From contig NZ_JAETXJ010000005.1 in assembly GCF_022508225.1 (NCBI RefSeq), positions 185,926 through 249,925 of the forward strand: 64,000 nt of DNA. The letters are read 5' to 3'. Origin of the DNA: Desulfovibrio sp. UIB00 (GTDB lineage Bacteria > Desulfobacterota > Desulfovibrionia > Desulfovibrionales > Desulfovibrionaceae). How positions within the stretch are numbered: position 1 is the stretch's first letter; each line of letters begins with the position of its first letter. The translations under genes and the position numbers were made by a program. Below, one piece after another: positions 4,956 to 47,346 of this stretch. Under the pieces are notes generated by a model. It did not search any database. It was not told where the DNA came from and worked only from the letters and a program-made list of their open reading frames with translations.

Positions 4956-5849
4956 ATGAACGGCTGGAAAGGCATTGTTCTTGCGGGAGGCTCTGGCTCG
5001 CGCCTGCACCCATTGACTCTGAGCGTGAGCAAGCAGCTCATGCCCATCTATGACAAACCCATGATTTACTACCCGTTGTCTATTCTGATGATGGCGGGCA
5101 TTCGGGATATCTGCTTTATTTCCACCCCTGAGCACCTGCCCCTTTACAAGGCTTTGCTGCACGACGGCTCGCAACTGGGCTGCAAGTTCAGCTACGTTGT
5201 GCAACCCCGCCCTGAGGGGTTGGCCCAGGCCTTTTTGTTGGCGGAAGATCACATTGCGGGGCATAATACCTGCCTGATTTTGGGTGATAATGTTTTCTTC
5301 GGTCATGGATTGCCAGCACTTACACACGCTGCCATGGCCCGCGAATCCGGAGCGACTATTTTTGGCTACCATGTGCGCGATCCTGAGCGTTACGGCGTTG
5401 TGGAATTTGACGATGCGCGGCAGGTAGTCAGCATTGAAGAAAAACCCGTCCTTCCAAAGTCCAACTTTGCGGTGACAGGCCTGTATTTTTATGACCAGAA
5501 GGTGCTGGATATCGCCCGCGCTGTGCGTCCCTCGGCCCGGGGCGAACTGGAAATCACAGATGTGAACAACGCCTATCTGCAACAGGGCGATCTGCATGTG
5601 GAGCTCATGGGGCGGGGCATTGCCTGGCTTGATACCGGTACGCATGATTCCCTCATGGATGCCGGTGCCTTTGTGCAGGCGGTAGAAAAACGCCAGGGAC
5701 TCAAGGTGGCCTGCCTGGAGGAAATAGCCTGGCGTAACGGCTATATTGATGCGGACGCTGTGCGCGCACTGGCAAAGCCCATGGCCAAGACCGGCTACGG
5801 GCAATATCTTCTTGAACTTGTGGATGCGGGGATTGGGCTGTGGAAGTAG
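4956..5849 (+). CDS. rfbA: Glucose-1-phosphate thymidylyltransferase
   Basis: A 297-residue enzyme that joins dTTP and glucose-1-phosphate to give dTDP-glucose and pyrophosphate, the first step of dTDP-rhamnose synthesis. The nucleotidyltransferase signature [13 protein letters not shown] is near the N-terminus, followed by [28 protein letters not shown] supplies the metal/nucleotide site and EEKPVLPKS the sugar site. ATG 4956 is chosen because of the purine-rich GAAGGGGGCGG just upstream and because the conserved core begins at residue 6. Length is normal for RmlA. It lies 14 bases after rfbB and its 3' end overlaps rfbC by ten bases. Confidence 0.96.
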
Positions 5850-6385
5850 TTCAGACGCCTATTGCCGGGTTACTTTTGGTCAAACCCAAGGTGTGGGGTG
5901 ACCAGCGCGGCTATTTTGTGGAAACATGGCAGCAGCAGCGCTACGCGGCGGCAGGCATTGATCAGCCTTTTGTGCAGGATAACCATTCCATGTCCGCCCG
6001 TGGCATACTGCGCGGTCTGCATTATCAGAAAACACGCCCTCAGGGTAAACTGGTCTATGTTTCGCTGGGCAGCGTATTTGATGTGGCTGTGGATATTCGG
6101 CGAGATTCCCCCACTTTCGGAAAGTGGTTCGGTGTAGAACTTTCACAGCAGAACCAGTGGCAGATGTGGGTACAGCCCGGCCTTGCACACGGTTTTGTAG
6201 TTACCAGCGAAATTGCTCATTTTCACTACAAGTGCACAGATTACTACTGTCCAGAGGACGAAGCGGCCATTCGCTGGAACGACCCGGCCCTCGGCATTGC
6301 CTGGCCCGTGGACGAACCTCTGCTTTCCGCCAAGGATCAAGCAGCTCCGTTGTGGGCTGAGGCTATGCAGGCCGCAGACCGCTGA
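5840..6385 (+). CDS. rfbC: dTDP-4-dehydrorhamnose 3,5-epimerase
   Basis: A 181-residue cupin epimerase that inverts C3 and C5 of dTDP-4-keto-6-deoxyglucose, step three of the dTDP-rhamnose pathway. Conserved elements include the RGLHYQ histidine, the [18 protein letters not shown] strand and GLAHGFVV. The GTG start at 5840 lies inside the end of rfbA, a ten-base overlap that implies translational coupling. Length equals the usual RmlC length. It is the last gene of the rfbBAC run and converges on hldD with a 70-bp gap that contains only a short ACCCGCT/AGCGGGT hairpin without a T-run. Confidence 0.95.
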
Positions 6386-6455
6386 ATCAATCGCAACGGA
6401 CTGCGGCATATCCTGATCAGAGTTTTACCCGCTTGGACACGTGAGCGGGTGCATT

Positions 6456-7442
6456 TCATTTGGCGGACATTTCAAGATAGGGATCGCTCTGGGCCATATA
6501 GTTGCCCACATAATCCGCAATGCCCTGTTCCAGCGACGCAAAGCTCATCGGGCAGTTTTTTTCCTGCATCCAGCTCATATCCGCCTGGGTGAAGTTTTGG
6601 TATTTCCCGCGCAAGGCTTCCGGCATGTCCATATACTCAATCTGGGGTTCTTTGCCCAATGCGGCAAATATGGCACAAGCCAGATCGTTCCAGCTTCGAG
6701 CCTTGCCCGTGCCCGCATTGAGGATGCCGTTGGCTGTCGGGTTTTCAAGCAGCCAGAGCATCAGCTCCACGCAATCCTTCACGTAGACAAAATCGCGCAT
6801 CTGGCCGCCGTCGGCAAAATCCGGCATGTTTGATCTGAAGAGTCGCAAACGCCCCGTAGCGTTGATTTCATGAAAGGCCTTGCAGGCTACGCTGCGCATG
6901 TCGCCCTTGTGGTATTCATTGGGGCCGTAGACGTTGAAAAACTTGAGGCTGACCACGCTCTCTGTAAGTTTGTTATCCAGCAGCCACAAATCAAAAAGGT
7001 GTTTGGAGTAGCCATACATGTTCAGGGGCTTGAGGCGTCTGGTCGTTTCTGGTCTGTCAGAGAAACCCTGTGAGCCATCCCCGTAGGTAGCGGCTGACCC
7101 GGCATTGATAAAGCGCGCTCCGTGTTCCAGGGCAAATCTGCACAGTTCTACAGTATAGGCCGTGTTGTTGGCCATCAGAAAGTCTGCGTCTTTTTCTGTG
7201 GTGGAAGAACAGGCCCCCATGTGCACGATTGCCTCTACCTTGCCGCCCAGCGTGTTGTCGCGCAGCATTTCCAGAAATTCAGACCTGTGTACATAGCGGG
7301 CATATCGCCGGTTGACGAGATTTTTCCACTTTTCCGTTGAACCGAGGTTATCCACCACCAGTATGTCAGTTATGCCTGCCTGGTTCAGCCGCCAGAGCAT
7401 GGCGCTGCCAATAAAACCTGCGCCACCAGTGATAATATACAT
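6456..7442 (-). CDS. hldD: ADP-L-glycero-D-manno-heptose 6-epimerase
   Basis: A 328-residue NADP-dependent epimerase that makes ADP-L-glycero-D-manno-heptose for the lipopolysaccharide inner core. The dinucleotide motif is ITGGAGFIGSAML at the N-terminus, the HMGACSSTTEKD segment is characteristic of HldD/RfaD, and the catalytic pair is in YGYSKHLFD. ATG 7442 is preferred since GAGG is six bases upstream and the Rossmann strand begins at residue 2; the frame is open 14 codons further back. It is transcribed towards the rfb genes and is monocistronic here. Confidence 0.94.
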   Translation of the reverse strand: MYIITGGAGFIGSAMLWRLNQAGITDILVVDNLGSTEKWKNLVNRRYARYVHRSEFLEMLRDNTLGGKVEAIVHMGACSSTTEKDADFLMANNTAYTVELCRFALEHGARFINAGSAATYGDGSQGFSDRPETTRRLKPLNMYGYSKHLFDLWLLDNKLTESVVSLKFFNVYGPNEYHKGDMRSVACKAFHEINATGRLRLFRSNMPDFADGGQMRDFVYVKDCVELMLWLLENPTANGILNAGTGKARSWNDLACAIFAALGKEPQIEYMDMPEALRGKYQNFTQADMSWMQEKNCPMSFASLEQGIADYVGNYMAQSDPYLEMSAK

Positions 7443-7734
7443 ACAAACCTCATTGATCCAGCATGTGGGCTCCTTGCGGAGCAAGGCGTAGAACCCGCGT
7501 CTGCGCTATCGCGCGCACCGATCATATCCCTGTCGGGCCAGACGCGTCAAAGTGTGCTCCGGGGGCCTGATCCGAGCAGATATTCATATGTGGTTGCGCG
7601 TATCTTTGCCCCTGCCCCCTTTTTGCAAAAAAAATTTTTGGCGATGGCAATGGCAAGGGGAGAATATTGCAATGCGGCTGTTACTGCTATAAGAAATTAA
7701 GTATAACTCCTGCAAGAGAACCAGCGAGGTAGAC

Positions 7735-10700
7735 ATGGTCAAATTTTTCCACACCGCATGCTGCTGCCTGCTTCTGCTGCTTCTCGCCTGTGCGAATCTT
7801 GCGCTGTGCGCGACGGATTCTTCCACGGCAGCCAGCGCAGACCCCATCACCATTGCCTGCATGAAGGATAACGAACCGCTGTCTTTTGTTTCAAAAACAG
7901 GAGAACCTGTTGGCCTGATGATTGATCTGTGGCGTCTGTGGGGCGAAAAAGTAGGCAGACCTGTGAAATTCATCATGGGCGACTGGCAGGATTCGCTTGA
8001 TGCCCTCCATTCTGGGCGGGCCGACATCCACTTCAGCATGTACATCACTCCCGACAGGGCCCGCTGGGCAAAATTTGGCCCGGCCATTTCTCCCGGCATG
8101 GGGGGGCTTTTGCTCTCAACATCTGCCGGGCAAAAAATTACTGACCCAAGCCAGTTGGGGGATGCGACCATTGTTGTGCTTGAAGGCTCGTTGCAGGAAG
8201 ATTACATGCGGGAGCACTTCCCCAAGGTTCAATTGGTGGTGGTGCGCAACGGGGCAGAAATGTTCATGTCGGTGGCCAATGGGCTGGCAGATGGCATTTC
8301 GAGCAACTTTCCTTCGGCTTATGGCACCATTGACCGGTTGGGCCTCAACAGCTTTTTTATGCCTCAGGCATTCCCCCTTTTTTCTCGCAACCTTCATCCG
8401 GCAGTGCTGCGTAACAGGGATGACCTTGCCCGGTTGATGGATGAAGGGCTTTCGCGCATATCCCGCGCTGAAATGGTGGCGCTTGAAGAAAGGTGGGTCC
8501 GTAATCCGGCGCACCGCGTTTGGGGCGACATGCCTCGCTCCCTGCTGCTCACCCCAGCGGAGAGGGAATGGCTGGCAAACCATCAGACCCTGCGTGTTGC
8601 CCTGGAGGATGATTGGCATCCCATTGAATTTATGGACAGCGAGGGCACATACAACGGCATTGGTATGAACCTCATGCAGGTTGTGGGGCGATACCTTAAT
8701 GTTGCCATACAGCCTGTTTCTTCCAATGTGCTGAAAGAAACCACAGGCCCCCGCCGGGCGGACGTGGAGCCTTTTCTGGAAGGGACGCCGCCAGAGGGTG
8801 GCCCCTGGTTGTTTACCAATCCTTTTTTGCAGCTGCCGCTGGCGGTTGCAACGCTTGACTCCGAGCGTTTGGTCACGAGCCCTGGCGACCTTGCCGGCAA
8901 AAGTGTGGCAGTGCATGATCACGCAGGTCTTGCAGGGTATTTGCGCGCCCAGTTGCCGCGATCAAAAATCGTGGAGGTCTCCAGCCTGACTGCGGGGCTT
9001 TCTGCGGTGCAGGGTGGGCAGTTCGACGCTATGGTGGGCATTGCACTTTCTGTGGAATACGCGGTGGTGAACAAAAACCTGCGCGATCTGCGCGTGGGCC
9101 TGCTGCCGCAGTTGCAGTATTCCGCCCGGGTAGCCGTACGCTCAGACTGGCCCCAGCTTGTCGAAATCATGAATAAAACACTGGATAATATCCCCCATGA
9201 GCAGATGGCCGCGATCATAAAGCGCTGGGCCAATCTGCGTATTGAGCGCGCCATGAACTGGATGCTCGTCTTGCAGATCGGCGGGGTGGTGACAGTGTTT
9301 CTGGGCAGCCTGCTTGCGGTCATTTTGATCTGGAACCGCAAGCTCGCGCAGGAATCGGCAGAAAGGCAAAAAGCTCTGGAAGCGGCCAGAGCCAGTGCTT
9401 CAGCCCTGTGGCAGCGCAAGCAGCAATTGCGCAGCATTGTGGATAATCTGCCAAGTCTCATGATGCTTAAGGATTCGCAAGCCCGCTACATTATGGCGAA
9501 CAAGTATTTTGAAACATTTACCGGCTATGCCGAATCCTACGTTGTGGGAAAGAACATAGCCGATCTGCTTTCCCCGGAGCATGCAGAACAGGGAATGCGC
9601 TTGGACAAACTGGTCATAGAAACCGGAAAAGTACATAAAACTGAAGAAGTCCGGTATGATGCAGTTGGAGAGGAACATATCCTGGATGTTGTGCGCGTTC
9701 CGCTGTTTGAGCCGGACGGCACAGTTTACGGCATGGTCTACATGGGGATAGACGTGACGGAACGCCGGGCCGCAGAACAGGCGCTGCGCCGCGCCCAAAT
9801 GGAAATGTCGCAGATATTCAATGCCGCTGGCAGCGCCATGCGGGTTATTGACCGCAGCCTGATAGTCAAGGAAGTCAACGATACCTACGTAAACTGCTTT
9901 GGCTATTCACGTGAAGAAATGGTGGGCCGCTGGTGCGGCGAATACCCCAGTGGATCAGATTGCGGCTCTGATTGTGTGGGCAAGCGCATTCTTAACGGTG
10001 AGCCTCGGGCTGCCATCCGTCAGCAGCGGCAAAAAAAAGACGGGACATGGGTATTTTGCGATCTGGTTGCCACGCCATTTCTTTCGCCTGATGGCGAGCT
10101 TCTCGGCATTATCGAAGATTGCCGGGATATTACCGACCTTGTGGAAAGCCAGCAGGCGGCGGAACAGGCCAGCAGGGCCAAGAGCGAATTTCTTGCCAAT
10201 ATGAGCCATGAAATCCGTACCCCCATGAATGCCGTTGTGGGACTTACTCATTTGACCCTGCGCACGCCTCTTAATGCAACGCAGCGTAATTATTTGAAAA
10301 ATATAGACAGCTCCGCAAAATCCCTTTTGCGGATCATTGACGACATCCTTGATTTTTCCAAGATTGAAGCTGGTCGCATGGACATGGAATATCTGGACTT
10401 TAACCTGGAAGAAGTCCTTCTTGGTCTCTCAAGTCTGGATACAACCAAATCCGGCGGGAAAAATATTGAGCTCTTGTTGCGCATCGATCGGGAGGTCCCC
10501 TTGTTTTTCAAGGGCGATCCTTTGCGGCTGGGGCAGGTACTGGTCAATCTTGTGGGCAATGCCATCAAATTTACCCCTTCGGGCGAGGTTGTGGTGCGCG
10601 TTGCGCTTGAGGAGCAAAAAGACCAGAAGGCGCAGTTGCGTTTTACCGTCACAGACACAGGCATTGGCATGGGGCAAGAGCAGCTGGACAAGCTGTTCCA

Positions 10701-39246: not shown

Positions 39247-39942
39247 CTACAGCAGGTTGTGGTCGAGGCGGTAGATCATTTCAATGGGATTGAGCAGCAC
39301 AATGCGCCTGCCCGAGCCAACAATAAGCCCTGCATTACGAAACTGCTGTAAGGTGGCGCTGACTGTGGGCTGGGTGGAGCCGACCATGGAGGCCAACTGT
39401 TCCTGGGGAATGCTCAGCGGGATTTCGCAGGGCTTGTTCCAGCCCTCAGTTGTGCGCAGGGTTTCGTAGGCCAGAGAAATGAGCAGGCTTGCCAGCCGGT
39501 TGGCAACGTCGCTGTTCTGGCGGCGCACCAGGTCGCCCATCTGGCGCAGTCTGCGCCCAAGCAGGGTAATGACGCTGCGCGCCAGCGGATAATGCTCTTG
39601 AAGCATGCTTTCAAAATCCTGCCGGTTGATGGCGTACAGCACGGATGCGCTGGCCGTCTGCGCGCTTGCCTTGCGCGGGGAATTGTTCAGCACTTCTGAA
39701 ATGCCGAATATTTCGCCCTTCATGCGCAGCGAGAAGGTCATTTCCTTGCCTGCGCGGTCCATACAGAAGATGCGTATCAGGCCGGATTCTATATAAAAGC
39801 AGGAGTCTCCCGCGTCACCTTCAAGAAAGACCATCTCATTCTTGGACAGTTCAAGGCGCTGGGCGTTTTTTAAAAAGGCGCTCTTGGCCTCGTCAATGCC
39901 CTTGAAAAAGTCTTCCTTTTCCAGATGCCAGAATGTGTCCAT
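39247..39942 (-). CDS. Crp/Fnr-family transcriptional regulator
   Basis: A 231-residue regulator with an N-terminal cyclic-nucleotide-binding-like barrel (LEGDAGDSCFYIESGLIRIF, MKGEIFGISEVL), a dimer helix, and a C-terminal winged helix-turn-helix (IPQEQLASMVGSTQPTVSATLQQF). It lacks the N-terminal cysteine cluster of Fnr, so it does not sense oxygen by an iron-sulfur cluster there; it may bind haem or a small ligand. It is the last gene after the AprA/AprB-like pair on the same strand and is the natural candidate to control that operon. GGAAGGG precedes ATG 39942. Confidence 0.9.
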   Translation of the reverse strand: MDTFWHLEKEDFFKGIDEAKSAFLKNAQRLELSKNEMVFLEGDAGDSCFYIESGLIRIFCMDRAGKEMTFSLRMKGEIFGISEVLNNSPRKASAQTASASVLYAINRQDFESMLQEHYPLARSVITLLGRRLRQMGDLVRRQNSDVANRLASLLISLAYETLRTTEGWNKPCEIPLSIPQEQLASMVGSTQPTVSATLQQFRNAGLIVGSGRRIVLLNPIEMIYRLDHNLL

Positions 39943-39964
39943 GAATGCCCTTCCCTGTGTGATG

Positions 39965-40004
39965 CGCCAGCGTCCCGCCGTGCAAAGACGGCGGGACGCT
40001 GGCG
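39965..40004 (-). terminator. Strong intercistronic hairpin between the AprB-like and Crp/Fnr genes
   Basis: A perfect 17-bp stem (39965-39981 with 39988-40004) and 6-base loop, 26 bases after the AprB-like stop. No T-run follows on the minus strand, so it is more likely a transcript-stabilising or processing hairpin, or a partial terminator that lowers expression of the regulator gene, than a complete stop. Confidence 0.55.
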
Positions 40005-40030
40005 ACTATTTTCAATACTACTCTGCGCTA

Positions 40031-40360
40031 TCAGGCCTTGTCCAGCCTGTTCACATAGCGGTAGGTCTGTTCCTGCCCGTTGATGTCGCGGCACTTCCAG
40101 ATAATGAAGTTGGAGCCCATGATGGGGCGCAACGTGGCCTTGAAGTAGCCCAACTGGTAGGGCATCTTGATTTCAAGCGCGCCTGCAGGGCAGGCCTTGA
40201 TGCAGGACATGCAGTCCCAGCAGTCGCGGGCGGCCCGCAAGTAGGCCTTGCCCGTGGCGGGGTTCAGAGCCATGAGATCGCCGGGGCAGATTTCTTCGCA
40301 ATGGGTTTCTTCGCGCCCGTTACAGCCGTTGCATTTGTGCGTGTCGATTTTTGGCGGCAT
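40031..40360 (-). CDS. AprB-like two-cluster ferredoxin subunit, short form
   Basis: A 109-residue ferredoxin with eight cysteines, C10-C13-C21-C25 and C47-C50-C53-C57, the pattern of adenylylsulfate reductase beta subunit (AprB), including the insertion between C13 and C21. True AprB is about 150-166 residues; here the C-terminal tail that wraps around AprA is missing. It would deliver electrons to the flavin of the adjacent AprA-like subunit. ATG 40360 has AGGAG upstream. Gap to the AprA-like gene is 15 bases. Confidence 0.85.
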   Translation of the reverse strand: MPPKIDTHKCNGCNGREETHCEEICPGDLMALNPATGKAYLRAARDCWDCMSCIKACPAGALEIKMPYQLGYFKATLRPIMGSNFIIWKCRDINGQEQTYRYVNRLDKA

Positions 40361-40375
40361 TGTCTTTCTCCTGAC

Positions 40376-42148
40376 TTAGGGCTTGTACCTGTCGCCGGGC
40401 AGCAACTGCTCGTAGGGACGGGTAAAGGTTGTCATTTCTCCTGTGGCGGGATCGCGGCGCGACTCCACAAAGCAGTCAAAGTTTTCATCGTCGCGCTGGG
40501 GGTAGTCCGAGCGGGTCTGCCAGCCAGCCCAGCGGGTTTCCTTGCGGGCCTTGAGGTGGTGCACCACGGCTTCGGCCACGTCCACGCGATCCATGGTTTC
40601 GTTGGCCTGCATGAGGTCGTGCAGATCCTTGGCGCGCAGATGCTTGAACTGGCTTTGCAGAATCTTGATGTGCCGCAGGGCGTAATCAAGCTGCTGCTCG
40701 TTGACGCGATAAAACTGGCTGGAACCGCCAGCGTATTCATCCATAAGCCTTTGCAGACGTTCCTTCATTTCCAGCGGGCTTACGCCTTCTTCTTCGCGCG
40801 TGAGCAGGGGAGCGTACACGCGTTCCTTTTCCTGCGCGATCTGGGCGGCATCAAGCTCCGGCGCATCGGCAACGGCCATATATGCAAGAGCGCCGCGCGC
40901 GGCCAGTTTGCCCTCGGCGCAGCAGCCGCCCACAAACTTGTTGGGGTTGCCGCCTGCGGTTTCGCCCGCTGCAAACAGGCCGGGCAGGGTTGTCATGCGT
41001 TCCATGTCCACCCAATAGCCGCCGCCTGTGTGCCCGCCCATGATGTAGGGATCGGAACCGAAGATTTCGATGGGTTCCTTGGACGGATCCTGCCCACGGC
41101 TGGCGAGGAAGAGCACGAAGGAAGGACGCTCGTTGAGGTAGTCTTCCATCATGGCCTTGGTTTTTTCCGGGGTCATGTTGGTGGTGTCGCAGAAGCAGGG
41201 GCCGCGACCAGCCAGCCATTCCTCCATGGGAGCGTTGGCGCGGATGTAGCGCGGGGCCGCATCGCCGCCAAGGCTTGCGTAGCGGCTCATGACGCGCTCG
41301 CCCAAGGAGTTGATGATGGGCGCGCCGTAACCCACGGAGATGGTATCCACCGGGCCGCAAAAATCTTTGGTGCGCGTGGCGACCCAGCGCTGCTCAAGAC
41401 TGCTGAGTTCCGCGCCCTGGCGCAGGCCCATGGCGTAGCCGGAACCAACGCAGTAGGGGCACATCCAGATTTGCGAACCGCTGTCGGTGGAATCGGCGGT
41501 GTAGGACTTGTAAAGCGTGCCCGCGCCGCCGGTGCTCACCACAGTGGCCCGTGCGCGGAACACGTAGAACTTGCCGTCGCGCACGCCAAAGCCCGTGGCC
41601 CCTGTGCAGCGGCCATTGTGCACCAGCAGGCCCGTTGCCGCCACGCGGTTGTAGACATCCGCGCCGGTTTCAAGGGCTTTTTCTGCCATGATGGGCTTGA
41701 GCTGCTCGCCGTGGATGGAAATATCCCACTTGCCACGGTAGCGGATGTTGCCCTGCTCATCGCGGAGAATGGGCAAGCCCCAGCGCTCCAGGTCTTCAAC
41801 GCATTCGTTGAGTTCCTGAGCGTTGGAGAGGGCCAGGTCTTCGCGCAGGGGGCCGCCGCCAACCTGCGAGCGGCTCCAGCGCACGAGGTCTTCGGGCGTC
41901 TTGTTGGGCGGAATATAGGTGTTGATGGCGTCCATGCCGGCAGAACACGCGCCGGAACGCATGATGTCGGCCTTTTCCACAATAACGATCTTGGCTGCGG
42001 GGTTGAGACGCGCGGTTTCCGTTGCCACAAAGCAACCGGCATTGCCGCCGCCGATGATCAACAGGTCGGCGGTTACCTCGACGGTTTCAATATCGTTCAG
42101 GCTGGTTGGCCGAAAATCGACCGCATGTGTTGTTTTTATGCGTGCCAT
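40376..42148 (-). CDS. AprA-like FAD-dependent reductase subunit
   Basis: A 590-residue flavoprotein of the fumarate reductase/AprA superfamily. It has the FAD loop LLIIGGGNAGCFVATETA, VEKADIMRSGACSAGMDAINTY, the PYIMGGHTGGGYWVD active-site region and LFAAGETAGGNPNKFVGG. The wording, including the end (YPQRDDENFDCFVES, RPYEQLLPG), follows AprA rather than FrdA, but it is about 60-70 residues shorter than dissimilatory AprA and is not next to sat or qmoABC. Context (DASS carrier before it, AprB-like ferredoxin and Crp/Fnr after it) suggests an anaerobic reductase or dehydrogenase for an imported anion. Substrate unknown. Confidence 0.82.
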   Translation of the reverse strand: MARIKTTHAVDFRPTSLNDIETVEVTADLLIIGGGNAGCFVATETARLNPAAKIVIVEKADIMRSGACSAGMDAINTYIPPNKTPEDLVRWSRSQVGGGPLREDLALSNAQELNECVEDLERWGLPILRDEQGNIRYRGKWDISIHGEQLKPIMAEKALETGADVYNRVAATGLLVHNGRCTGATGFGVRDGKFYVFRARATVVSTGGAGTLYKSYTADSTDSGSQIWMCPYCVGSGYAMGLRQGAELSSLEQRWVATRTKDFCGPVDTISVGYGAPIINSLGERVMSRYASLGGDAAPRYIRANAPMEEWLAGRGPCFCDTTNMTPEKTKAMMEDYLNERPSFVLFLASRGQDPSKEPIEIFGSDPYIMGGHTGGGYWVDMERMTTLPGLFAAGETAGGNPNKFVGGCCAEGKLAARGALAYMAVADAPELDAAQIAQEKERVYAPLLTREEEGVSPLEMKERLQRLMDEYAGGSSQFYRVNEQQLDYALRHIKILQSQFKHLRAKDLHDLMQANETMDRVDVAEAVVHHLKARKETRWAGWQTRSDYPQRDDENFDCFVESRRDPATGEMTTFTRPYEQLLPGDRYKP

Positions 42149-42178
42149 AATGTCCTCTCGGGCAAAGGGTTGGGGCGA

Positions 42179-43726
42179 TTAAAAAGGCCAGGCTGCGGCG
42201 GGGTTCCACACGGGCATGCCGAGCAGCGCGTACCAGGGGGCCATGACGCAGACGCCGTAGGCGATAGCGATAAGCACGGCCACAGAACCCACCTTGGCGT
42301 AGTCAGCTGTGGAGAAGGTTTCTGTGCTGTGCGCAATGACTGCGGCGGTAATCTGCGTGGGCAGCAGGTAGGCGAAGGTGTCGGTATCGCAAACCAGCAG
42401 GGTAAAGGCCACAGGGTGCAGCCCAAGCTTGGGCGCCATGGCAAATACCACCGGGGCAAGCATGGCCACGGCAGCCACGTTGGAGAGCATGCCAAGGCGG
42501 ATAATGTGCGTGCCCACCATCATGGTCAGCACGGTCTGCCACCAGTTCATACCCACAACCATGCTGTGGATGTGGTCGGCAAGCCACTGTGCCACGCCAG
42601 CCTGGGTCATGGCGGTGGTCATGGTCATTGCGCCGCCCAGCAGCAAGAATGTGCCCCAGATGGTCTTTTGCTGCACGGCCTTCCATGAGCAGGGCATCAT
42701 GCCGGGGGCAAACAGCACCATCATACCAACAAGACCGATAACGCCCAAAGGCTGGCGGTGCAGTTCATAAATAAAGCTGCCCTTGCCCGTCACAAACATG
42801 AATCCGACCAGCAGAAAAATGCCCAGCAGGGTTTTTTCCGCCATGCTCATGGGGCCAAGTTCCTTGTAGCTTTTTTCAATGGTGGCGGAGCCGCCCGCAA
42901 TGGAAACGCAGTTGGTCTTGAAGTAGTAGCGCGTCCACCAGTTGGTCAGCACAAACATCCCCAGATACGGGAACTGCAGGAGCATCCAGTTGAGAAAGTT
43001 GATGTTGGTGAAGCCGTTTTTTTCAAAAATACCCACCAGAATCATGTTGGGCAGGTGGGCGGTCATGATGAACATGCCGCAGATCATGGAGCCGTAAACC
43101 AGAGACTGGATGACAAGGGCCTTTTTTGCGGCGCGTTCTTCGGGCGTATCACCCAGCAGATTGCAGATGCCCTGCACCACGGGCAGCAGGGTGGCGGCGC
43201 GGGCGTTTGCCGCAGGCACCAGAAAGCCCAGAACAATATTTACAAAAAACATGCCCCAGATAACCCGGCATACGGACGAAGCCTTGAAGCGGGCCAGAAT
43301 GCCCAGAGCGATGCGGCGGTCAAGGCCAATGAGCTGCATGACCGCTGCCACCATAAAGGCAAACAGGCACAGCCAGATAACGTGGTCGGTGAATCCGGCA
43401 AAGATGGTAGCCATGGGCGGCTTGCCGTTGTTCCAGGGCAGAGCCTGGGTGATCAGCAGCATGGTGGGAATGGAAATACCAGTCACGCCTGCGGGCATGG
43501 CCTCGCTGACCCACATGATGCTGGCCCATACCACAATGCCGAGAACGGCCATGCCGTTGTGCGTCAGCCCGTCAAAAGCGGGAATCACAGTCCACAGCAG
43601 AAAAAACGCAACCCATGCCAGGGCAAAACCCGTGAAAGCGCGCAGGGGATTTTTGCCCCTATTACGAATATTTTCACAAAGATAGCCCAAAAAAGACCGC
43701 CCTGCGGCGGAAGAAACCTGAGTCAT
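42179..43726 (-). CDS. DASS/SLC13-type anion carrier
   Basis: A 515-residue membrane protein with about 11-13 helices. DASS signatures are WVSEAMPAGVTGISIPTMLLI near the N-terminus, ANARAATLLPVVQGI in the middle (the usual SNT is ANA-R here), and SNVAAVAMLAPVVFAMA in the second half. It therefore binds a di- or tricarboxylate or a similar anion with Na+. It heads the operon with the AprA/AprB-like genes; ATG 43726 follows GGGGTAGGTAT. A perfect inverted repeat lies 22 bases upstream of the start. Confidence 0.85.
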   Translation of the reverse strand: MTQVSSAAGRSFLGYLCENIRNRGKNPLRAFTGFALAWVAFFLLWTVIPAFDGLTHNGMAVLGIVVWASIMWVSEAMPAGVTGISIPTMLLITQALPWNNGKPPMATIFAGFTDHVIWLCLFAFMVAAVMQLIGLDRRIALGILARFKASSVCRVIWGMFFVNIVLGFLVPAANARAATLLPVVQGICNLLGDTPEERAAKKALVIQSLVYGSMICGMFIMTAHLPNMILVGIFEKNGFTNINFLNWMLLQFPYLGMFVLTNWWTRYYFKTNCVSIAGGSATIEKSYKELGPMSMAEKTLLGIFLLVGFMFVTGKGSFIYELHRQPLGVIGLVGMMVLFAPGMMPCSWKAVQQKTIWGTFLLLGGAMTMTTAMTQAGVAQWLADHIHSMVVGMNWWQTVLTMMVGTHIIRLGMLSNVAAVAMLAPVVFAMAPKLGLHPVAFTLLVCDTDTFAYLLPTQITAAVIAHSTETFSTADYAKVGSVAVLIAIAYGVCVMAPWYALLGMPVWNPAAAWPF

Positions 43727-43747
43727 ATACCTACCCCACGATAAAAG

Positions 43748-43777
43748 AGTGTCAGTACGCGCGTGGGCACTGACACT
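43748..43777 (-). promoter_or_regulatory. Inverted repeat upstream of the DASS-AprA-like operon, candidate operator
   Basis: AGTGTCAGT, 12 bases, ACTGACACT: a perfect 9-bp inverted repeat 22 bases before the DASS start codon. The arms are about two helical turns apart, which suits a dimeric regulator such as the Crp/Fnr protein encoded at the end of the operon. It could also fold as a stem-loop in the 5' untranslated RNA. Confidence 0.55.
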
Positions 43778-43923
43778 AGGTTAGTTTGCTCTTCCATTCC
43801 ATGTGCTGGATGATAATTCGGAGAAAAATATTTTGGCCTGGCTGTAGGCTTTGCGGCAATTTTTAAGGCTGAGCATACCTCTGTGAATGATGGCAACTTA
43901 CTGAATTACTATGTAAATACGGC

Positions 43924-44028: not shown

Positions 44029-44880
44029 TTACAGTTTGAAAAACTCCAGAGCCGGAGCCTTGGCGATCATGCCCGCATCTGCCAGCATTTGATAAAAAAG
44101 GCTCAAGCCGCGCTGTTCTTCTTCGCCCAGTGTGTAAACAAGACCCTTGCTGTAGTAGAAGGCCAGCTCCTCGCGCGAGAGGGGGCAGCCATGGGCCGTG
44201 AGGTCGAGGATGACGTCCATGTGCTCAAGGCCCCAGTCGCGGCCCTGCCGCAGCAGCGCGCCGGGGTCGCTGGTAAAGAGTTTTGCCTCGGCGGCGGCGC
44301 GGCTGACCACCCACAGGCCAAAAATAAAGGGCAGGCCCGTCCAGTCGCGCCACGCCTCAGCCAGATCAAGACGGTGCGGATACTCGGGATGGTTGCGCAG
44401 GCGCAGGGCTTCATCGCCAATGGCCAGAAAGGCCACGGGCGGGTTTTTGCCGCGCAGGGCCGGGGTCACCTGCCCGGTGGTGAATGTGACGTTGAGCTTG
44501 AACCTGTCGCGCATGATGAGGCGCAGCAGGGCCACCGAGGTATGTGTTTCGCCGCTGATGAGGATTTCCTGCCCCTCAAGCTGATCAAAGGGCACGCGTG
44601 AGAGCAGCAGTACGCTCATGACCGGGCCGTGGGAGCCTATGGAGAGGTCTTCCACAAGCTGGTAGCGCTCCGGGCGGCTGGCGTATTCAAAACACGAGCA
44701 GGACGAAACGTGCAGTTCGCCGCGCGCCATCATGGTGTTGAGCAGGGCTGGCGGGCCGGAAACAAGCTCGTAATCGTGGGGTAGAATACCGGCTTCAAGC
44801 GGGTGATAGATGGGCAGTACATTGAGATAGCCAATGCGGCCCATGCGCAGTACAGGGGGAGTTTTCTTTTGCTCGGTCAT
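44029..44880 (-). CDS. mqnA: Chorismate dehydratase (futalosine menaquinone pathway)
   Basis: A 283-residue MqnA that converts chorismate to 3-enolpyruvyl-benzoate (3-[(1-carboxyvinyl)oxy]benzoate), the entry step of the futalosine route. The N-terminal MGRIGYLNVLPIYHPLE, the SSCSCFEYA loop and LISGETHTSVALLRL are family marks; it has a periplasmic-binding-protein fold. ATG 44880 begins just before the conserved core; its ribosome site is weak. It lies 115 bp after mqnC with a hairpin between them. Menaquinone serves the fumarate reductase in this window. Confidence 0.92.
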   Translation of the reverse strand: MTEQKKTPPVLRMGRIGYLNVLPIYHPLEAGILPHDYELVSGPPALLNTMMARGELHVSSCSCFEYASRPERYQLVEDLSIGSHGPVMSVLLLSRVPFDQLEGQEILISGETHTSVALLRLIMRDRFKLNVTFTTGQVTPALRGKNPPVAFLAIGDEALRLRNHPEYPHRLDLAEAWRDWTGLPFIFGLWVVSRAAAEAKLFTSDPGALLRQGRDWGLEHMDVILDLTAHGCPLSREELAFYYSKGLVYTLGEEEQRGLSLFYQMLADAGMIAKAPALEFFKL

Positions 44881-44944
44881 GGGGCGGAGTACCTTTTGCC
44901 AGGGGCAAAGCCGATGGGCGAAATTTGAATGTGCGGCCAAAACG

Positions 44945-44972
44945 CGTTTCCGGGGGCGAACCCCCGGAAACG
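44945..44972 (-). terminator. Intercistronic hairpin between mqnC and mqnA
   Basis: Perfect 12-bp stem with CGAA loop (CGTTTCCGGGGG and complement). On the minus strand GCGTTTTGG follows, a weak T-run; it may attenuate or stabilise rather than fully end the mqnEC transcript. Confidence 0.5.
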
Positions 44973-44995
44973 TGGAATCAATTGTGCAAGGAGCT

Positions 44996-46126
44996 TTACG
45001 CTTCAGGCTGGGGAACCACGGGCGTGTAATCCATGGTGCGCTGCACAGGGGTAAAGCCCGCCGTGCGGATGACCTTGTGGATGTCGCTGCGGTTCATGTG
45101 GAAGGAAACCCCGGCTGCGGCCACCACGTTTTCTTCAATCATCAGCGAGCCGAAGTCGTTGGCGCCGTAGAACAGGGCCAGTTGGGCCACCTGCGGTCCC
45201 ATGGTCACCCAAGAGGCCTGGATGTTGGCGATATTGTCCAGCACCAGACGCGAGACTGCCAGTAGGCGCAGGTAAGCGGGCGCGGGCAGCGGGTCGACGT
45301 CGATGCGCGTGTGCGCTGGCTGGAATGTCCAGGGAATAAAGGCCGTGAAGCCATGGGTGCGGTCCTGCACCTCGCGCACGGCAAAGAGGTGATCCAGCCT
45401 GTGAGCGGGTTCTTCCTCATGGCCGAACATCATGGTTGCGGTGGTGCGCAGGCCCAGCTTGTGGGCTTCTTCCATAACGCCGAGCCACTGCTCGGCAGTG
45501 CATTTGTTGGGCGAAACCTGGGCGCGTACGCCCGTGTGCAGAATCTCCGCCCCACCGCCGGGTAGAGATTGCAGGCCAGCTTCTTTCAGACGGCGCAGCA
45601 CTTCCGTTACGGAAAGGCCGAATTTCTCGGCCCAGAAGAAAATCTCCGGCGGTGAAAAGGCGTGGATGTGCAGTTGCGGCCATGTGGCCCGCATCCAGCG
45701 CAGCAGGTCTTCGTACCACTCCAGCGGCAGGTCGGGGTGGTGTCCGCCCTGGAGCAGCACCTGGGTACCGCCGAGGGCAAGGGTTTCCTCGATTTTCTGC
45801 GCCATTTCCTCTCGGCTGATAATGTAGCCGCCGTCCTGATCTGGCGCGCGGAAAAAGGCGCAGAAGCGGCAGGCGCACACGCACACGTTGGAATAGTTGA
45901 TGTTGCGGTCGCCCACGTAGGTGACAATGGGTTCCGGGTGCAGGCGCAGACGCCTGGCGTGGGCCAGTTGAGCAAGCGTGTGCAGGCTGGCCTTGTAGTA
46001 CAGGGCTTCGGCGGCAGCGCGGTCAAGGCGCTGACCACTGGCGGCAAGGGCTGCGGCCTGGCGCACGTCTTCAAATTCTGCGCCCGCTTCGTCAAAGGGG
46101 CTGTGCGCGGGGAAAAACGTACTCAC
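44996..46126 (-). CDS. mqnC: Cyclic dehypoxanthinyl futalosine synthase
   Basis: A 376-residue radical SAM enzyme that cyclises dehypoxanthine futalosine in menaquinone synthesis. The cluster triad is C82-C86-C89 in VCVCACRFCAFFR; PGGGAEILHTGVRAQVSP and MMFGHEEEPAHRLDHL are shared MqnC/MqnE motifs. The GTG start at 46126 overlaps the mqnE stop by four bases (GTGA). It is told from MqnE by its position after the ring-forming residues and by overall wording; the pair are paralogues. Confidence 0.92.
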   Translation of the reverse strand: MSTFFPAHSPFDEAGAEFEDVRQAAALAASGQRLDRAAAEALYYKASLHTLAQLAHARRLRLHPEPIVTYVGDRNINYSNVCVCACRFCAFFRAPDQDGGYIISREEMAQKIEETLALGGTQVLLQGGHHPDLPLEWYEDLLRWMRATWPQLHIHAFSPPEIFFWAEKFGLSVTEVLRRLKEAGLQSLPGGGAEILHTGVRAQVSPNKCTAEQWLGVMEEAHKLGLRTTATMMFGHEEEPAHRLDHLFAVREVQDRTHGFTAFIPWTFQPAHTRIDVDPLPAPAYLRLLAVSRLVLDNIANIQASWVTMGPQVAQLALFYGANDFGSLMIEENVVAAAGVSFHMNRSDIHKVIRTAGFTPVQRTMDYTPVVPQPEA

Positions 46127-47262
46127 TGGCGCGCCTCCGTGGATTCGTCGTTCAGTGTATTGAAGGTGGCGTTGCGCCGCACCGGGGTAAAGCCCGACTC
46201 GCGGATAAGGTGCTCAAGTTCCTCAATGGTCATACCCTGAGCGGACTGCGCGCCCGCCATGTGACCGATGCGCTCTTCAATGATGGTGCCGTCCAGATCG
46301 TCCGCGCCGTACCACAGGGCCACGGGGGCCAGCTTGGGGGCCATCATGATCCAGTAGGCCTTAAGGTGGGGGATATTGTCGAGCATGAGGCGCGAAACAG
46401 CCACCGTGCGCAGCTGATCCAGCCCGCGCTGGGGGCCCACCTTGTCTTCCGGCAGCTTGAGTCGGCTATGATCCGTAAGGAAGGGCAGGGGGATAAAACA
46501 GGTAAAGCCGCCGCTTTTGTCCTGCTGCTCGCGCAGTCGGCAGAGGTGGTCGATACGATGTTCGTATGATTCGATATGCCCGAACAGCATTGTGCAGTTG
46601 GTGGCAATGCCGAGGCTGTGAGCCTCGCCCTGGATGCGCAGCCATGCCTTGGCATCAGCCTTGTGCGGGCAGATCTGCGGGCGCAGTTCTTCATCAAAAA
46701 TTTCCGCGCCGCCGCCGGGCATCATCACAAGGCCCGCGTTCTGCAAGCGCTTGAGCACCTCAAGGGTGCTGATGCCTTCAAGGCGCGCAAAATGTTCAAT
46801 CTCTACGGCCGTAAAGGCCTTGACCGGCAGGTTGGGGTTGAAGGCCCGCACCGCGCGGATCATGTCTTCAAACCAGGCAAGGGGGCGCGTGGGGTGGCAG
46901 CCGCCCACAATGTGCAGCTCGTCCAGATGCAGGGGGGTCGCGTCTGCGGCGCGCAGGCGGGCCAGCACGTCATCAAGGCTCATGGCAAACGCGCCCGGCT
47001 CGTCCTCCCTGTCGCGGCGGAAGGCGCAAAAGGTGCAGCCGTTGACGCACACATTGGTATAGTTGATCTGCCGATTGACCACATAAAAGGCCTTGTGGCC
47101 GTGCAAGCGGCAGCGCACGTGCAGCGCAAGAGCGCCTACGGCTGTAATATCGGGGCAGTTGAACAGTGTCAGCCCGTCTTCGGGCGAAAGCCGCTCCCCG
47201 GAGAGCACCTTTTCGCGGATAGACGAAAGGCCCAGTGCGGCGTAGTATGTTGCGTCTAGCAT
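46123..47262 (-). CDS. mqnE: Aminofutalosine synthase
   Basis: A 379-residue radical SAM enzyme joining 3-enolpyruvyl-benzoate to the adenosyl radical to form aminofutalosine. Cluster cysteines are C72-C76-C79 (VCVNGCTFCAFRR); HIVGGCHPTRPLAWFEDM and PGGGAEIFDEELRPQICP follow. ATG 47262 is chosen as the conserved MLDATYYAALGL begins there. It is divergent from mqnD across 84 bp and coupled to mqnC. Confidence 0.93.
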   Translation of the reverse strand: MLDATYYAALGLSSIREKVLSGERLSPEDGLTLFNCPDITAVGALALHVRCRLHGHKAFYVVNRQINYTNVCVNGCTFCAFRRDREDEPGAFAMSLDDVLARLRAADATPLHLDELHIVGGCHPTRPLAWFEDMIRAVRAFNPNLPVKAFTAVEIEHFARLEGISTLEVLKRLQNAGLVMMPGGGAEIFDEELRPQICPHKADAKAWLRIQGEAHSLGIATNCTMLFGHIESYEHRIDHLCRLREQQDKSGGFTCFIPLPFLTDHSRLKLPEDKVGPQRGLDQLRTVAVSRLMLDNIPHLKAYWIMMAPKLAPVALWYGADDLDGTIIEERIGHMAGAQSAQGMTIEELEHLIRESGFTPVRRNATFNTLNDESTEARQ

Positions 47263-47346
47263 ATCTGAATCCTGTGCATGGATTGGGGGCAAAATGCCGC
47301 TCGCAGATTAAGCCCCGCCGCCGCACACTGTCAACGTGAGGAAAAA

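Follow-up and report, generated by a model that had tools for sequence, protein, structure and literature searches.

The FlA-FdB pair of Desulfovibrio sp. UIB00, encoded in a 64,000-nucleotide stretch of contig NZ_JAETXJ010000005.1 (positions 185,926 to 249,925; hereafter the window), is a second, non-canonical Apr pair of its genome. FlA is an AprA-like flavoprotein and FdB an AprB-like ferredoxin, and their genes form one unit with those of a DASS anion carrier and a Crp/Fnr-family regulator (Table 1), with gaps of 30, 15 and 88 bases in the order carrier, FlA, FdB, regulator. We regard the pair as a variant of the AprBA kind that should not be filed as an adenosine 5'-phosphosulfate (APS) reductase, and tentatively read the unit, from sequence comparison, as a carrier-fed reductase that would act on an imported sulfo-anion distinct from APS and free sulfite from it. 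A first-pass annotation of the same DNA had described these four genes as one unit and suggested a substrate other than APS; the four open reading frames and their families were recovered where it had placed them, while one of its residue assignments proved mistaken and its interpretation is supported in part.

The canonical sulfate-reduction genes of this genome (3.46 Mb, completeness stated as 100%) lie on other contigs. An aprB-aprA-qmoA-qmoB-qmoC stretch, its genes named by eye from order and sequence, occupies contig 7, a single sat lies on contig 8, and the canonical AprA scores 1203.5 bits against the TIGR02061 cut-off of 641.75. The unit is therefore apart from sat and qmoABC, as first described, and the candidate reading of FlA-FdB as the main APS reductase of the genome was rejected. 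A lone APS-kinase-like gene was also found (contig 1, 226585-227016; 93 bits, above cut-off), with neighbours that by eye have no evident sulfate link. FlA has 590 residues versus 662 in the genome's own AprA, and FdB 109 versus 162 in its own AprB, so the differences are 72 and 53, in keeping with earlier estimates of about 60 and 50. All 44 FdB sequences compared are 106-120 amino acids long, and therefore all are without the AprB C-terminal tail; eight cysteines and W48 are kept in every one.

Profile scores and phylogeny place FlA beside the APS reductases and outside them. FlA scores 387.2 bits against TIGR02061 (canonical AprA), under the cut-off, and FdB is likewise below the TIGR02060 cut-off of 135.65 bits. 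FlA exceeds the cut-off of NF005331, a profile named adenylyl-sulfate reductase subunit alpha (584.2 versus 557 bits), but this leaves the substrate unsettled because NF005331 also passes short AprA forms encoded beside cysDN. Against TIGR01812, the fumarate reductase/succinate dehydrogenase (FRD/SDH) subfamily, it reaches 172.6 bits, short of the cut-off of 567.3. In a tree from which one FlA row with masked letters (L025) and eleven near-identical FlA rows were left out, FlA and canonical AprA each form a single clade (support of 100 in the Shimodaira-Hasegawa-like approximate likelihood ratio test, SH-aLRT) and are sisters at a support of 83, with a long-branch warning. The 3'-phosphoadenosine 5'-phosphosulfate (PAPS) reductase of Methanothermococcus thermolithotrophicus (MtPAPSR, 8a8o), Clostridial rows and 10 of 11 short-form rows make up a separate clade (98) that excludes FlA. 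Of the enzymes with solved structures, PAPS and APS reductases come nearest. Neither of the two outcomes that would have made FlA-FdB an ordinary APS reductase, namely FlA grouping inside bona fide AprA or a genome with no other aprBA, was found. Short AprA forms were also seen in other members of the phylum, beside CysD/N in two loci (L114, L116) and beside cysteine-synthase-like genes, by eye, in another (L115); these likely belong to an assimilatory branch. A C-terminal piece of FlA (72% identical, with one in-frame TAG) lies on contig 74 (6183-6560) of a genome, G005, that has a full copy elsewhere. An apparent 1051-residue fusion at locus L097 was not accepted, since the long frame probably overruns the upstream DASS gene (just ahead in the same stretch, L111).

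The substrate pocket of FlA combines a conserved AprA-type core with changes fixed across the clade. Columns were numbered by Archaeoglobus fulgidus AprA and compared over 170 FlA rows (162 distinct), with L025 alone dropped. N74, W234, R265 and H398 are the catalytic residues of A. fulgidus AprA, and all four, like R317 and K447, are present in every one of the 170 rows; the counterparts in FlA are N76 (N74), W228 (W234), R259 (R265), H373 (H398) and K404 (K447). The first-pass annotation had rightly reported the Asn and the active-site His as retained. It had also taken the Trp of the PVWNAG segment to be Cys here, which is wrong: that column (Trp in 13 of 14 AprA rows, Phe in A. fulgidus) is Tyr (Y232) in the FlA of the window, and the Cys (C233) stands one position further on, where 13 of 14 AprA rows have Asn. 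The Trp shared without exception by all groups lies elsewhere, at W228. Fixed differences in all 170 rows are Q145 to D142, G274 to D268, T314 to R300 and F277/L278 to S271/V272. Gln 145 occurs in 14 of 14 AprA rows, and G274 is invariant in the three other groups. The column of R300 is Thr (Ala in 2 AprA rows) across all 146 AprA, PAPS reductase-type and short-form rows, and R300 aligns with the PRD-motif arginine of SdhA (6lum) and of three other SDH/FRD/aspartate-oxidase-like rows; the NF006131-like protein L125 shares this arginine. This arginine serves as an acid in SDH/FRD, in which the His of HPTG, the His of AHY and the Arg of NRLG bind the dicarboxylate; these latter three residues are not at the aligned places in FlA.

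The pocket also departs from that of MtPAPSR. Gln 145 has been named as conserved in APS reductases, where it would clash with a 3'-phosphate, and loop 104-123 of MtPAPSR has been proposed to receive that phosphate (PMC10322725). At the positions of MtPAPSR R118, K120, R121 and S122, picked from the alignment within this loop, FlA has R138 (170/170), K140 (121/170), W141 (169/170) and D142 (170/170), so that two of the four positions differ. FlA thus lacks both the Gln 145 of APS reductases and the adjacent Arg of MtPAPSR (at A. fulgidus 144), with D142 where MtPAPSR has Ser. By its aligned residues, the pocket is thus a mosaic of an AprA-type clamp and a fumarate-reductase-type arginine, which speaks against adenosine monophosphate (AMP) as the leaving group or acceptor but does not single out another.

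The enzyme pair and its regulator stay together while the carrier changes. The main set comprised 34 loci from genome contigs, with flanks that vary and some short contigs; genes were picked by a home-made heuristic, neighbours were labelled by tblastn (at least 50 bits) plus hmmscan of examples, and the counts are not independent, as near-copy loci are present (e.g. L061/L062 and L041/L042). FdB was found in 34 of 34 loci and the regulator in 33, so the unit is beyond chance; in the remaining locus, L037, the contig ends within FdB, ahead of any regulator. In four loci (L041, L042, L068 and L069) the regulator is divergent and upstream. The gene ahead of FlA encodes a DASS carrier in 15 loci, a TTT carrier in 11, a TauE/SafE carrier of two types in 7 and a PhnD-like binding protein in 1, with Pfam identities checked for eight examples. 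Mapped on a 46-row FlA tree, the carrier must have changed state at least five times, with DASS pooled with the more distant DASSb and no state given to L055. The carrier is therefore swapped between unrelated families, and "dedicated", as applied to the anion carrier in the earlier description, needs rewording. No match to sat, cysD, cysN, cysC, qmoA, qmoB or qmoC was detected in the FlA loci searched, whereas cysD/N is adjacent in two of four short-form loci used as a control. Locus L056 contains a 449-residue open reading frame (about 5791-7140), transposase-like by eye, between FdB and the regulator, and its DASS gene is only 47% identical to that of the window; the DASS gene of L057 (about 6391-7895) is matched as two separate pieces, which would fit a frame change or an assembly error.

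Eight distant loci (L104-L111; FlA 66-73% identical) all have a DASS-family carrier, and an HdrA2-like gene follows FdB. Among them, an HdrB-like gene is present in three, a PhnD-like gene in five, a Crp/Fnr match in six, and a membrane protein with HdrC- and NarI-like parts in two. These units recall QmoABC/HdrABC, but their HdrA-like proteins score below the curated HdrA cut-offs. The PhnD-like protein of L108 scores best with the sensor domain of the tetrathionate kinase TtrS (93.9 bits, far under the cut-off of 750).

A shared operator-like sequence precedes the different carriers. In 28 of 43 loci the 350 bases preceding the carrier gene contain the palindrome TATC-N8-GATA (36 sites in total), and these loci span three carrier families: DASS (16/23), TTT (8/12) and TauE type 1 (4/5), with none for TauE type 2 (0/2) or DASSb (0/1). 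Markov shuffles gave a mean of 0.10 loci and a maximum of 2 among 300 shuffles. The palindrome was discovered in the same regions in which it was then counted, the guard being that the runner-up 4-N8-4 palindrome reached only 6 of 43 loci; L113 was dropped as lying on the same contig as L053, L121 and L122 were unused, and for two of the 43 no upstream bases were available. As palindrome and regulator are co-conserved, the Crp/Fnr protein is predicted to bind there.

The distribution of sulfate-activation genes bears on APS as a substrate. Four genomes, all metagenome-assembled genomes (MAGs) by title, encode FlA, a TTT carrier and DsrA, with no detected Sat or canonical AprA: Candidatus Bilophila faecipullorum (G489), Mailhella sp. 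(G490), a member of the Desulfovibrionaceae (G491) and Candidatus Avidesulfovibrio (G492). Occurrence of the unit in such MAGs argues against APS as its substrate, and APS made by Sat would not be the substrate in these four unless Sat was missed, CysDN makes APS or APS is external. Together with the clade-fixed pocket changes, these MAGs lend support to the earlier suggestion of a substrate other than APS. Elsewhere, Sat was found in 28 of 34 FlA genomes of one set, leaving six without a match, and in 30 of 32 of a second set that overlaps the first, so that the counts are not additive; in one genome, G412, it is a 36-position piece only. Two of the Sat-less genomes (G494 and G500) do carry canonical AprA, so a gap is possible there. 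Canonical AprA exceeded its cut-off in 30 of the 32 genomes, the exceptions being G188 and G412 (99% and 93% complete), each with some Sat match. DsrA was matched in nine of nine FlA genomes tested, the four MAGs included, and was over cut-off in eight, which makes sulfite a sensible product. In the UIB00 genome itself DsrA gave half matches only, two of them at 355-356 bits and both covering model positions 1-209 (contig 1, 1-654; contig 15, 18956-19609), and as one lies at a contig end, the assembly may have split or duplicated the dsr operon.

As the pair also occurs in genomes without a detected sulfate-activating gene, it likely acts on a different imported anion, predicted to bear sulfur. 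The carrier would import a dianion with a sulfo group, with thiosulfate, polythionates and organic S-sulfonates (S-sulfocysteine, for example) as candidates, and the FlA-FdB pair would reduce it in the cytoplasm. Electrons would pass through FdB; their donor would be the neighbouring HdrA2-like protein in the distant members and perhaps QmoABC in Desulfovibrio. The sulfo group would sit at N5 of the flavin adenine dinucleotide (FAD), held by N76, W228, R259, H373 and K404, while R300 with D142 and D268 may protonate or bind a non-AMP leaving group, for example thiolate or sulfide. Sulfite would then be released for DsrAB, with the Crp/Fnr protein turning the unit on. More speculatively, the clade could be a third lineage within the AprBA fold and act as a respiratory sulfo-reductase, one that joins the AprA sulfo clamp to a fumarate-reductase-type acid arginine and cleaves S-S or S-thiolate bonds of imported thiosulfate, polythionates and S-sulfonates to sulfite, serving sulfidogens with or without sulfate reduction through unrelated carriers under one operator; we consider this improbable as a whole.

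Two other explanations are serious. The pair may instead reduce an unsaturated or activated organic acid in the manner of fumarate reductase, the carrier importing a di- or tricarboxylate, FAD supplying a hydride and R300 a proton, with no sulfur chemistry. The alignment of R300 with the PRD arginine argues as much for this chemistry as for sulfite release, DASS and TTT carriers commonly move di- and tricarboxylates (PMC5840216, PMC5812351), and the unit contains no gene recognised as sulfur-specific. However, the remaining SDH/FRD substrate residues are out of place in FlA, its AprA-type N, W, R, H and K are invariant, the genome already encodes a protein of fumarate-reductase type (the stretch scored reaches 1031 bits with NF042982; cut-off 1100), and the TauE/SafE carriers of 7 loci point to sulfur anions, so that we hold it to be unlikely, if a genuine contender. 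Slightly less likely, in our judgement, is that FlA-FdB serves as an auxiliary APS or PAPS reductase under particular conditions (low sulfate, for example), equipped with a sulfate carrier and a regulator of its own and fed by Sat elsewhere in the genome or, in Sat-less members, by CysDN or by neighbours. Retention of the catalytic residues, the closest solved enzymes, Sat in most FlA genomes, the APS-kinase-like gene of UIB00, the sulfate carriers among the DASS and TSUP families (PMC5840216) and growth of Sat-less Bilophila wadsworthia with APS in one study (PMC11610557) all fit it. Against it stand the replacement of Gln 145 and Gly 274 by Asp in all FlA, the four MAGs, the lack of sat and cys matches in the FlA loci set beside the short-form controls, and the TTT carriers of 11 loci, which are not known to move sulfate (PMC5812351). 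Reported DASS substrates are dicarboxylates, sulfate and other dianions, and TSUP/CysZ carriers move sulfate (PMC5840216), while those of TTT mostly have two acid groups, sulfolactate included (PMC5812351). A sulfo-group dianion fits all three carrier families and a plain dicarboxylate two. That the pair runs in reverse, for instance consuming toxic sulfite while the carriers export the product, is highly improbable: Pfam does name TauE/SafE a sulfite exporter and AprBA is reversible (PMC10322725), yet MtPAPSR has no reverse reaction in the same source, and members keep DsrA, a sulfite reducer. DASS and TTT carriers are, moreover, mainly importers.

Several observations weigh against sulfite release from an imported sulfo-anion. 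Most FlA members live with Sat and canonical AprA, so that an APS-related role is possible there; the contig of L052 has a canonical aprB some 7 kb upstream, on the opposite strand, and both Apr types are on contig 184 of G001, where a similar arrangement may hold. Completeness is unstated for the four MAGs lacking detected Sat and canonical AprA, in which CysDN was not searched. Beyond the pair, no known sulfur enzyme could be recognised among the genes of the unit, a neighbourhood search found no HdrA-, HdrB- or Qmo-like genes beside the Desulfovibrio units, and TTT carriers mostly move carboxylates. The operator of the window is itself degenerate: the window, L120 and L037 keep only the left half TATC, with the right half changed, at the same place (-89), and a scan of the window allowing at most one mismatch gave three matches, none at the unit, with as many in 35 of 100 shuffles.

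Among known systems, AprBA (1jnr, 2fja, 3gyx) shares with FlA-FdB the columns N74, W144, W234, R265, R317, H398, K447 and F448 and a two-cluster ferredoxin with a bridging Trp, and differs in subunit length, in the fixed pocket changes and in the absence of sat or qmo beside the window's unit. MtPAPSR differs further in that no APS-kinase match was found in the FlA loci. The flavoproteins of fumarate reductase/SDH (1kf6, 6lum) differ in their other substrate residues, and FlA has an AprB-like ferredoxin as partner. A putative AprAB pair has been described in Sat-less sulfidogens of the same family, B. wadsworthia and Taurinivorans muris (PMC11610557, PMC10507020); no locus so titled was among the FlA loci retrieved. 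APS reduction has been proposed for the AprAB-like genes of B. wadsworthia, with AprAB pairs of low similarity as part of the basis for the proposed APS cross-feeding (PMC11610557). T. muris, with AprAB-like genes and an incomplete sulfate pathway, respires thiosulfate although no thiosulfate reductase is known for it; a rhodanese has been suggested (PMC10507020). Two AprAB pairs have been reported for B. wadsworthia, and a second, distant Apr/Frd-like flavoprotein in Candidatus Bilophila faecipullorum (L125; NF006131, 294 bits, below cut-off) possibly resembles one of them. The evolution of AprAB and Qmo is treated in PMC10504309, and no account of the FlA clade, the carrier swap or the operator was recognised in the portions of the open-licence PMC literature consulted.

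Table 1 Features of the carrier-FlA-FdB-regulator unit (positions are those of the window).
Feature	Position	Strand	Length (amino acids)	Evidence
Crp/Fnr-family regulator	39247..39942	minus	231	PF00027 74.1 bits and PF13545 57.5 bits, both above cut-off
FdB, AprB-like ferredoxin, two 4Fe-4S sites, no AprB tail	40031..40360	minus	109	TIGR02060 82.6 bits
FlA, AprA-like FAD flavoprotein	40376..42148	minus	590	
DASS (SLC13-type) anion carrier	42179..43726	minus	515	PF00939 207 bits; TIGR00785 202.9 bits
Operator-like site (degenerate), at -89 relative to the DASS start	43800..43815	minus		Comparison with L120 and L037

The DASS carrier passes the TIGR00785 cut-off of 198.6 bits, and the regulator combines a cyclic-nucleotide-binding domain with a Crp-type helix-turn-helix. 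Directly upstream of the unit, on the same strand, lie an MqnA-like gene (PF02621) and, by eye, MqnC- and MqnE-like genes (44029-47292 of the window); Mqn-like genes also adjoin the unit in L120.

Public records label close homologues, among the matches listed, as adenylyl-sulfate reductase, and genomes without sulfate activation can therefore be counted as APS reducers; surveys of aprA may likewise capture a different enzyme. The swapping of carriers under one operator offers three carrier families whose common substrate can be assayed. If the proposed release of sulfite from an imported sulfo-anion is true, the FlA-FdB pair would provide a testable enzyme for a so far unassigned source of sulfite in sulfidogens, for example in the thiosulfate respiration of T. 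muris.

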